NCBI GenBank assembly: GCA_017618715.1
Contig: JAFZTS010000071.1
Coordinates: 1-64,000, forward strand
DNA: 64,000 nucleotides
Direction: 5' to 3'
Origin: Bacteroidales bacterium
Lineage (GTDB): Bacteria > Bacteroidota > Bacteroidia > Bacteroidales > UBA3663
A model generated the notes under the pieces. The model made no database searches. It had not been told where the DNA came from and was given only the letters and a program-made list of their open reading frames with translations. Shown here in pieces: positions 5,353 through 47,095 of this stretch (within the stretch, counting starts at the first letter, position 1; every line of letters starts with the position of its first letter). The position numbers were made by a program, and so were the translations under genes.

Positions 5353-6258
5353 ATGATCAGGAAAAAGGACGGATTCCAGGGCGAACGCGCCGTAGTGCTG
5401 CCCCCTATGGTCGTCGAGCTCCAGGAGCGCGACCCCATCACCCGAAGCCTCTACCTCACCGACATCGGCTACTATCCCAAGGCCGAGCACCACCATCGGC
5501 GCCGCCTCCAGCCCATCGACCAGTATGTGCTCATCCATTGCGTCGATGGCAGCGGCTACTATGTGCTCGATGGCCGAAGGCGCGAAGTGCGTCGCGGACA
5601 GTACTTCATCCTCCCCCCTGGCAAACCGCACGAATACGGCACCGACCCGCGCGACGCGTGGACCATCTACTGGCTCCACTTCCGCGGCGAGCAGGCCGCC
5701 ATCTACGCCGAGGGTGCCGACGAGCCCCGCACCATCGGTGTCGCCCTACATTCGCGCATCGGCGAACGCATCCTCATCTTCGACGAGCTGCTCACCACCC
5801 TCCAGGCTCATCAGGGGCTCGAGGACCTGCGCTATGCCTCCAGCCTGCTCCATCACTTCCTCGCCACCATGCGCTATCTCGGCCAGTACCGCCGCGCCCT
5901 CCGTAGCGACGAGCCGCGCGATGCCTGCGACGTGGTCGAGGCTGCCATCCACTTCATGCGGGAGAACGTCGAGCGGCGCGTCACCCTGCGCGATGTGGCG
6001 GCCTATGTCGGCTATTCCCCCAGCCACTTCACCACCCTCTTCCGCCGGCGCATCGGTCAGAGTCCCCTTGCCTACTTCTGCCGCCTCAAGGTCGAGCGCG
6101 CTTGCCACCTGCTCCTCCATTCCGACCTCAAGGTTAACCAGATCTGCTACAAGGTCGGCATCGACGATCCTTTCTATTTCTCCCGCCTATTCTCCAAAGC
6201 TAAGGGTGTCGCGCCAAGCGAATTCAGAAGGATAAACGAAGAACACAATCACAAATAA
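5353..6258 (+). CDS. AraC-family transcriptional regulator
   Basis: A 301-residue cytoplasmic regulator. The N-terminal half is a cupin-like ligand-binding domain (YVLIHCVDGSGYYVL, then RRGQYFILPPGKPHEYG, then WTIYWLHFRG), the pattern of sugar-sensing AraC/XylS proteins. The last 100 residues carry the two helix-turn-helix motifs (TLRDVAAYVGYSPSHFTTLF and, about 50 residues on, VNQICYKVGIDDPFYFSRLF). The ATG at 5353 is preferred to an upstream TTG at 5323 because the -7 box of the promoter overlaps the TTG. It faces away from the DUF5107/TPR gene and is its likely regulator, probably responding to a mono- or oligosaccharide (inference). No other PUL gene is adjacent. The gene ends in a stretch of low-complexity repeats. 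Confidence 0.93.
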   Translation: MIRKKDGFQGERAVVLPPMVVELQERDPITRSLYLTDIGYYPKAEHHHRRRLQPIDQYVLIHCVDGSGYYVLDGRRREVRRGQYFILPPGKPHEYGTDPRDAWTIYWLHFRGEQAAIYAEGADEPRTIGVALHSRIGERILIFDELLTTLQAHQGLEDLRYASSLLHHFLATMRYLGQYRRALRSDEPRDACDVVEAAIHFMRENVERRVTLRDVAAYVGYSPSHFTTLFRRRIGQSPLAYFCRLKVERACHLLLHSDLKVNQICYKVGIDDPFYFSRLFSKAKGVAPSEFRRINEEHNHK

Positions 6259-6350: not shown

Positions 6351-6639
6351 GCTTGCACTACTTGGTACCAACCAAAGCTGTCTTACGGCAAGCTTGCACT
6401 ACTTGGTACCAACTAAAGCAATCTCACGACAAGCTTGCACTACTTGGTACCAACTAAAGCAATCTCACGACAAGCTTGCACTACTTGGTACCAACTAAAG
6501 CAATCTCACGATAAGATTGTACTATTTGGTACCATTTAAAGCACGAACCACTGCAAGCAGGTATTACTTGCGCACATTCAGTACAGTCTCACCACACGAT
6601 TGCATTACTTGTACACAAGGAGTGCATCTTCGCTCTTTT
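6351..6639. repeat. 41-bp tandem repeat array with TTGGTACCAA palindrome
   Basis: About seven contiguous units start at 6351, 6392, 6433, 6474, 6515, 6557 and 6599. The period is 41 bp, becoming 42 at the end. The three central units are almost identical and each contains the perfect 10-bp palindrome TTGGTACCAA inside TGCACTACTTGGTACCAACT. Units 5-7 decay progressively towards the downstream gene. The array fills the space between the AraC regulator and the TauE-like gene, ending 69 bp before the latter. It has no spacers of CRISPR type and no open frame of note. It could be a set of protein-binding sites or a replication-slippage product. Confidence 0.9.
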
Positions 6640-46144: not shown

Positions 46145-46550
46145 AGTCCAATTTACTAAATTGAATTGGACCCGTCTGATTGTCTCGGTCCAATTTACTA
46201 AATTGAATTGGACCCGTCTGATTGTCTCGGTCCAATTTACTAAACGGAATTGGACCCATCCGATAGTATCGGTCCAATTTGCTAAACGGAATTGGACCCG
46301 TTCGATTGTGTCGGTCCAATTTGCTAAAGAGAATTGGACCCGTCCGATAGTTTCGGTCCAATTTGCTAAACGGAATTGGACCCATCCGATTGTCTCGGTC
46401 CAATTTACTAAACGGAATTGGACCCGTCTGATTGTCTCGGCCCAATTTACTTAACGGAATTGGACCCGTCTGATTGTCTCGGTCCAATTTACTAAACGGA
46501 ATTGGACCCGCCCGACAGTGTCGGTCCAATTTACTAACGAGAATTGGACC
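46145..46550. repeat. 10 x 42-bp tandem array of inverted repeats
   Basis: Ten contiguous units start at 46145, 46187, 46229, 46271, 46313, 46355, 46397, 46439, 46481 and 46523 with no drift in period. Each unit is GGTCCAATT, a 10-nt loop (mostly TRCTAAACGG), AATTGGACC, then a 14-nt linker such as CGTCTGATTGTCTC. The 9-bp arms are almost invariant while the linker varies at a few positions. It lies between the divergent AAA ATPase and HTH genes and ends 52 bp before the HTH promoter. Because 42 is a multiple of three, both strands stay open (46128-46553 minus, 46161-46454 plus) as 14-residue peptide repeats, which I regard as fortuitous. Confidence 0.95.
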
Positions 46551-46601
46551 CAATCGACGGAAAGACGTCTAATGGAAGGTTTTGTCCATTTTTTATTAAA
46601 A

Positions 46602-46636
46602 AAATTTGGAGATATTGAAAATAAGCTGTATATTTG
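46602..46636 (+). promoter_or_regulatory. Promoter of the HTH-protein gene
   Basis: AAATTTGG at 46602 and TATATTTG at 46629-46636, 20-nt spacer. The leader to ATG 46661 is about 20 nt. Confidence 0.75.
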
Positions 46637-46660: not shown

Positions 46661-47095
46661 ATGGGAACATCAAGTATGCCAGTGGGGCGTCGTCCTCACA
46701 CAGTGAATAAAGAAGACCGCAAACCTTTCACGCCACCTTACACTATTGGTGACCTTTTCGCCTATCCGGAGAAGGTCACCGGGAACCAACTGCTCGATGC
46801 TGTCAGTGAAGCAATCTACACCCACAAGTTCACGACGGCCAAGGAAGTGGCAGAATATCTCAATCTTGATCAGAACAAACTCAATAACGTTCTACAGATC
46901 TTTGTAGGCAGCACTTTGGGCGAGATTGTCAGCGCATCCGTCTTCATACGCGTTGAAAAATACCTCAAGGAACATCCCGAAGAGACCCTCGATCAGGTGG
47001 CCAAGGCTACAGGATATAATAGCAAGAGCGCTGTGGCTTGCATCTATAAACGTTTTGGAAAAGGCACTCCACGTGCTGAGGAAACCAAGAAATAA
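46661..47095 (+). CDS. Small helix-turn-helix protein
   Basis: A 144-residue cytoplasmic, basic protein. A disordered basic start (MGTSSMPVGRRPHTVNKED) leads to two helical segments. TAKEVAEYLNLDQNKLNNVL (about 59-78) looks like one helix-turn-helix, and ETLDQVAKATGYNSKSAVAC followed by IYKRFGKGTP (about 109-138) resembles the second HTH of AraC proteins. There is no ligand domain, so it would be a stand-alone DNA binder. ATG 46661 follows the promoter closely; 46676 is an alternative. It sits immediately downstream of the 42-bp array, which makes the array a candidate binding platform (inference). The family is not identified. Confidence 0.7.
   Translation: MGTSSMPVGRRPHTVNKEDRKPFTPPYTIGDLFAYPEKVTGNQLLDAVSEAIYTHKFTTAKEVAEYLNLDQNKLNNVLQIFVGSTLGEIVSASVFIRVEKYLKEHPEETLDQVAKATGYNSKSAVACIYKRFGKGTPRAEETKK

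Follow-up and report, generated by a model that had tools for sequence, protein, structure and literature searches.

Ten copies of one palindrome, set at a strictly constant interval between an AAA ATPase gene and the gene of a small HTH protein, raise the question of what such an array is for and which protein might read it. The array occupies positions 46145-46550 of the window, the whole stretch of 64,000 nucleotides analysed here. The original prediction of ten phased 28-bp inverted repeats with a 42-bp period was confirmed, since all ten units (starting at 46145, 46187, 46229, 46271, 46313, 46355, 46397, 46439, 46481 and 46523) lie exactly 42 bp apart with linkers of 14 bp, and this exact pitch also supports the claim that all palindromes face the same side of the DNA. 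TRF called the array at 46146-46551, with a period of 42, 9.7 copies and 0% indels. The unit as read in the window is GGTCCAATT-N10-AATTGGACC followed by the 14-bp linker; in the canonical orientation, which lies on the minus strand, the module becomes (G)GTCCAATT-N10-AATTGGAC(C), and it is referred to below as type A. Its 9-bp arms are perfect in eight of the ten units, with one arm substitution each in unit 1 (AGTCCAATT) and unit 8 (GGCCCAATT), while the ten-base loops vary, as do the linkers. The 28-bp pattern was matched 14 times per strand in the genome of origin and the reversed control pattern not at all. The array is far from chance.

A search of related Bacteroidales for palindrome arrays, which had been proposed as a check, found them in six species, where they co-occur with a family of HTH proteins. 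Type-A arrays, mostly of 9-10 units, stand at several intergenic loci per genome in these six rumen species (G000, the genome of the window, and G003, G005, G006, G010 and G013); G005 and G006 mostly have C or T instead of G as the outermost base of the arm. Among 84,980 species, a pattern of 1.5 type-A units matched only metagenome-assembled genomes (MAGs) of Bacteroidales from rumen, omasum and reindeer; its matches in 393 genomes of the order were confined to this genus, and in viral contigs it gave 0 matches. Type-A arrays are missing from those genus members that the YgjP-like marker gene places further away. Seven type-A loci are syntenic between species, and one of them, next to polA and the YgjP-like gene, is present in all six, with convergent neighbours in several. 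Copy number does not vary freely: among the 33 type-A arrays that do not start at a contig edge, 23 have 9-10 positions and 26 have 8-11. All genomes compared are incomplete metagenome assemblies, in which repeat arrays may be mis-assembled; yet only one type-A array begins at a contig edge, and independent assemblies agree on the counts. The assembly of the window itself has both the polA-YgjP array locus and one other array locus in duplicate (L027/L028 and L124/L125), which suggests that G000 is a mixture of two strains or species.

Over about 250 type-A units from the six species, the arms GTCCA[A/T]TT and AATTGGAC are near-invariant while loop and linker vary. The expectation of nearly invariant arms and variable linkers was thus borne out, with the correction that the loops vary too, and the proposed selection on the palindromes is supported. 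The A.T pair at arm position 7/22 is replaced by T.T in 54 of 250 units and by A.A in 6, but never by T.A, and the other arm pairs showed no covariation in the same set of about 250 units. This pattern fits half-site recognition in duplex DNA rather than an RNA stem. AraC-type domains such as that of MarA make two major-groove contacts at a distance of about 10 bp, each domain covering about 20 bp; weaker conserved blocks were found about 10 bp from the type-A arms, a spacing that would be compatible with the two HTHs of an AraC domain. Within arrays, and also among the loci of one genome, loops and linkers have become homogenised (permutation, loop p=0.0005, linker p=0.0015), and the genome-wide homogenisation of the loop points to gene conversion between loci or to co-evolution with a putative binder. 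In G013 the loop reads TACTTYAGNG genome-wide (L037, L038, L130 and L128), and in G000 TACGATT or TACGTTA (L028, L125 and L127).

The same architecture occurs with other palindromes. A sample of G010 chosen regardless of arrays (first-20-kb contig stretches and one longer run, 688 kb in total) contained 23 tandem arrays 100 bp or longer, and in 14 of these the period is 41, 42, 84 or 126. The palindromes of these arrays, named types B to G, are unrelated to type A, and like type A they have a pitch of 41-42 bp and about ten modules. The spacing of strong palindromes throughout the sample peaks at 21, 42, 63, 84, 105 and 126 bp only, against a local-shuffle background of about 0.06 pairs per distance; the 21-bp peaks are trivial, because the right arm of one unit pairs with the left arm of the next. 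In a set of 606 modules, 500 intervals between neighbours were measured, of unlike as well as like type, and 98.4% of them are 41 or 42 bp long. Mosaic arrays exist, with module orders such as ABABABABA, AABABABAA, CCCDCCCDCCC and CCDCCDCDCC. The polA locus is ABABABABA in G003 and A only in the other species, and the glycerate kinase locus is ABABABABA in G010 and mixed A and C in G013; pitch and number are kept at both loci. The module order of several mosaics reads identically both ways (AABAAABAA, AABABABAA, CCCDCCCDCCC and CCCDCCDCCC; L030, L032, L222 and L223). The type-C palindrome was found only in the same six genomes, at several loci and with 23-60 matches each, its control pattern giving 0. 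Extrapolation from the density in the G010 sample gives an estimated total of about 75 arrays per 3.7-Mb genome. One G010 contig (C38) carries three arrays starting near 33.8, 63.7 and 94.5 kb (L220, L222 and L223), about 30 kb apart, a number too small to speak of regularity.

The gene that follows the window array (46661-47095, plus strand) encodes HTH-A, a stand-alone AraC-type (HTH_18) protein of 144 aa, which is proposed as the cognate type-A binder on the basis of Pfam, predicted fold and adjacency. Its HTH_18 match (3.5e-07, 30.8 bits) is just below the cut-off of 33.6, which is passed by the related proteins of types B, C and F; that of type E is weak. The model of HTH-A (mean pLDDT 70) is closest to the DNA-binding domains of AdpA, GadX, AraC and MarA, and by this fold and the HTH_18 matches the array-linked proteins fall within the AraC family (PF12833/PF00165), with its two-HTH DNA-binding domain. 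The family has a specific N-terminal motif and no ligand domain. A profile search of 15 genomes of the genus placed every member at E<1e-17 in one of the six array-bearing genomes, with 12 in G010, and gave only generic AraC proteins (E >= 5e-15) in the remaining ones. In a 149-genome sample of the order, members were found in the genome of the window only, and a second genome of the genus gave a single generic hit. The viral contigs contained neither relatives of the HTH protein nor arrays, and a phage or viral origin was rejected on these grounds. Upstream of the type-B and type-C HTH genes lies another gene, for a protein X that is about 290 aa long and gives a weak HTH signal, in the order X - HTH - array (L047:265-1131, plus strand; further copies in L045, L049, L054, L055 and L059). 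Considered as a second component, protein X gave no family and no solved relative, and its model was poor (pLDDT 34).

The suggested link between the array and the HTH gene is supported by the whole family. All 20 testable members, that is, those with enough flanking sequence (two G010 members of subtype B at a contig edge were left out), have a phased array within 1 kb, and 19 of them within about 170 bp. At the measured array density, the chance of an array near any gene is about 8%, which is a fairer background than the generic AraC loci: none of 18 had such an array, but 17 of them come from genomes without A and C arrays, which makes them a weak control. The cis array precedes the gene (5') in type A; in types B, C, E and F it follows the gene (3'), most often at a distance of 13-67 bp. 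In addition, the palindrome type matches the protein subtype, for 46/46 modules beside HTH-A, 29/29 beside HTH-B, 11/11 beside HTH-E and 46/46 beside HTH-F; beside HTH-C, 47 of 55 modules are type C, 7 are D and 1 is E. Random 42-mers were assigned a type in 4 of 1500 cases. Protein similarity alone led to subtypes B, C and F, and type E was found array-first; since orthologous loci are non-independent, the number of independent protein/array pairings is small. G005 has two separate sites with an HTH-C gene and its array, and the HTH-B gene is found together with its own array in no fewer than two gene neighbourhoods; because these pairs recur in different surroundings, protein and array travel together. 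The adjacency of HTH-A and its array is kept in 5 species, and in G005, an 84%-complete MAG, type-A arrays are present and the HTH-A gene was not found.

Most arrays stand beside neither of the two neighbours seen in the window. This does not refute the pairing, because the arrays form a scattered family, of which each type has one or a few members linked in cis to an HTH gene. The AAA ATPase gene (ATPase_2, PF01637; 44779-46005, minus strand), which had been considered as an alternative partner, is a neighbour only: another gene takes that side of the syntenic G010 array, and the ATPase is incidental. No partner, ParA or other, is constant beside the HTH/array pairs. Another array in the window (6351-6543, with degenerate units to about 6640) shares the architecture of the first but is unrelated to it in sequence: its pitch is 41 bp, its dyad is ACTTGGTACCAACT, and it lies 72-93 bp 3' of a gene (5353-6258) that encodes a full-length cupin-AraC regulator. 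The gene-array order there is the same as for types B, C, E and F.

The array is probably a cognate binding platform for the adjacent AraC-type protein, within a clade-specific set of paralogue/palindrome pairs that form phased scaffolds. The arrays, their pitch and module count, the mosaics, synteny, the protein family, cis-linkage, type matching and the shared species range were computed directly. From these we infer binding, dimerisation, bridging and a physiological role as follows. Each of several stand-alone AraC-type paralogues (about 12 genes in G010) would recognise its own palindrome, repeated about ten times beside the gene of that protein and at further intergenic sites. The pitch of 41-42 bp would represent four helical turns, or two 21-bp AraC-type half-sites, so that one dimer per dyad would place two inverted 21-bp monomers on each 42-bp unit. 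An occupied array would then be a nucleoprotein rod of about 400 bp with about ten dimers on one helix face, and rods of like type might self-associate or form boundaries and in this way organise, insulate or silence the surrounding chromosome, an action modelled on that of SopB at sopC. Scaffold, boundary or silencing roles are favoured over single-gene operators because the arrays of the blind G010 sample are not tied to promoters: among those with both neighbours called, 3 lie between convergent, 3 between divergent and 7 between tandem genes, an orientation close to random.

In the F-plasmid sequence, TRF finds sopC as a 43-bp tandem repeat in 10.7 copies with perfect dyads TGGGACCACGGTCCCA, starting 88 bp 3' of sopB; the literature describes it with twelve repeats of 43 bp and ten inverted-repeat motifs (PMC6238139). 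The likeness to the present tandem arrays is one of geometry only, in pitch class (41-42 bp here versus 43 bp), in the number of about ten modules, in the dyads and in the order of gene then array found with types B, C, E and F. In contrast to SopB, the proteins here are of the stand-alone AraC-type HTH_18 kind and not ParB, and the ORFs up to 1.5 kb from the HTH genes, which were inspected by eye and in part compared with Pfam, included no recognisable ParA. The present arrays also differ from sopC in being chromosomal, dispersed, of many orthogonal types and sometimes mosaic. By analogy they may work like sopC, but they are not members of the sopC-type ParABS family.

The arrays could instead be ordinary multi-site operators, through which the HTH proteins would regulate their own genes and the promoters beside the arrays, with copy number tuning cooperativity. 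Transcription regulation is the usual role of AraC-type proteins, and the probable HTH-A promoter (46605-46636, plus strand), read by eye as TTTG at 46605-46608 and TATATTTG at 46629-46636, is found about 54 bp downstream of the type-A array. The sequence of this promoter is conserved in relatives, and its motifs are of the Bacteroidales-type consensus; the distance of 111 bp from the array to the HTH-A start codon is kept in three species. Against this, the cis array is 3' of the HTH gene in types B, C, E and F, the blind G010 arrays have no promoter bias, and the type-A locus at polA-YgjP lies between convergent genes in several of its six species. This explanation is unlikely, and of the operator platform originally envisaged the link with the HTH protein stands, while a local operator alone does not account for arrays that lie 3' of the HTH gene or have convergent genes on either side. 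The HTH proteins share the HTH_18/AraC DNA-binding domain with factors of the AraC/MarA/SoxS type, but differ from them in being paired with a fixed-pitch array, not with one operator.

It is also improbable that the arrays are selfish or neutral minisatellites homogenised by recombination, with the HTH genes riding along or aiding repeat persistence. The model for such elements, and the nearest repeat within the order, is PgRS of P. gingivalis. PgRS (MITE464) and BrickBuilt are MITE-like intergenic elements of Bacteroidales with 41-nt (PgRS) or 23-nt tandem repeats, in about 10-20 copies per genome (PMC4596501). The period of PgRS and the homogenisation of loops and linkers within arrays and between loci (for the loop, by genome) agree with this explanation, whereas the invariance of the arms against drifting loops does not, nor do the persistence of array position and module count across species and the single pitch common to unrelated palindrome families. 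In addition, PgRS and BrickBuilt have terminal inverted repeats, whereas no conserved ends were seen among the 160-bp flanks listed for the present arrays, whose loci are unrelated. Unlike those elements, several palindrome types here have an adjoining DNA-binding protein gene and match its HTH subtype.

A structured RNA, in which the transcribed array would act as a chain of hairpins, had also been suggested and is now very unlikely. The type-A unit does fold stably as RNA (-14.1 kcal/mol, z -5.3), and the whole type-A array as a single strand has a z of -6.7 (DNA parameters). However, some palindrome types are without hairpin potential, with no excess in type E (z -0.3) or in the 41-bp array of the window (z 0.1), and the T.T change in the type-A stem is uncompensated, the compensated pair occurring in 0 of 250 units. 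No Rfam family was over threshold, the only match being a sub-threshold hammerhead, and an RNA would not be expected to keep a fixed pitch of 41-42 bp.

Mobilisation by a RAYT (Y1 transposase), as for REP/BIME repeats, is hardly tenable. Like REP/BIME, the arrays are dispersed, partly clustered intergenic palindromes, some between convergent genes, but they have a fixed 42-bp pitch, about ten modules and no matching RAYT distribution: Y1_Tnp was not detected in four of the six array-bearing genomes (G000, G005, G010 and G013, all incomplete MAGs) and is present in genomes without type-A arrays. That the array encodes a repetitive protein of 14-aa repeats can be practically dismissed. A period of 42 is divisible by 3 and the minus strand has an open frame of 141 codons, but the other strand is open as well, TTG is the only start of this frame, and the 41-bp arrays of the same class shift frame at every unit. 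A CRISPR array was rejected because the linkers are short (14 bp), similar and homogenised instead of being unique spacers, and PINSR, a Prevotella-specific 188-bp repeat, is unrelated to the type-A array.

We know of no described system in which a set of paralogous DNA-binding proteins of a bacterium is paired with matching palindrome arrays that are dispersed and keep the same pitch and length, and a literature search on AraC with tandem-palindrome arrays, phased arrays or 42-bp repeats found no paper. The matched protein/DNA-array pairs favoured above as cognate platforms point to an undescribed set, perhaps used to organise the chromosome. More tentatively, and with some doubt, they could constitute a multi-channel chromosome-organising code, in which orthogonal solo-AraC rods would mark sets of intergenic sites and like or mosaic rods would associate into addressable clusters. 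If binding is confirmed, the set would be a candidate chromosome-organising system of Bacteroidales that offers natural orthogonal protein/array pairs for chromosome labelling, insulation and synthetic scaffolds, and the geometry of the F-plasmid centromere would have been reached convergently by an unrelated protein family.

Other members of the genus (L165, L173 and L174; G008 and G012 samples) have tandem arrays with periods of 63-76 bp, in which a palindrome excess is absent where scored. In the more distant genus member G001 (L142, 475-702 and 713-1183), the 5' end of a divergent small HTH gene directly adjoins an array of 42-bp palindrome units, the arms of which are CTAACCAA and TTGGTTAG, and the pairing may thus be older than the six-species clade.
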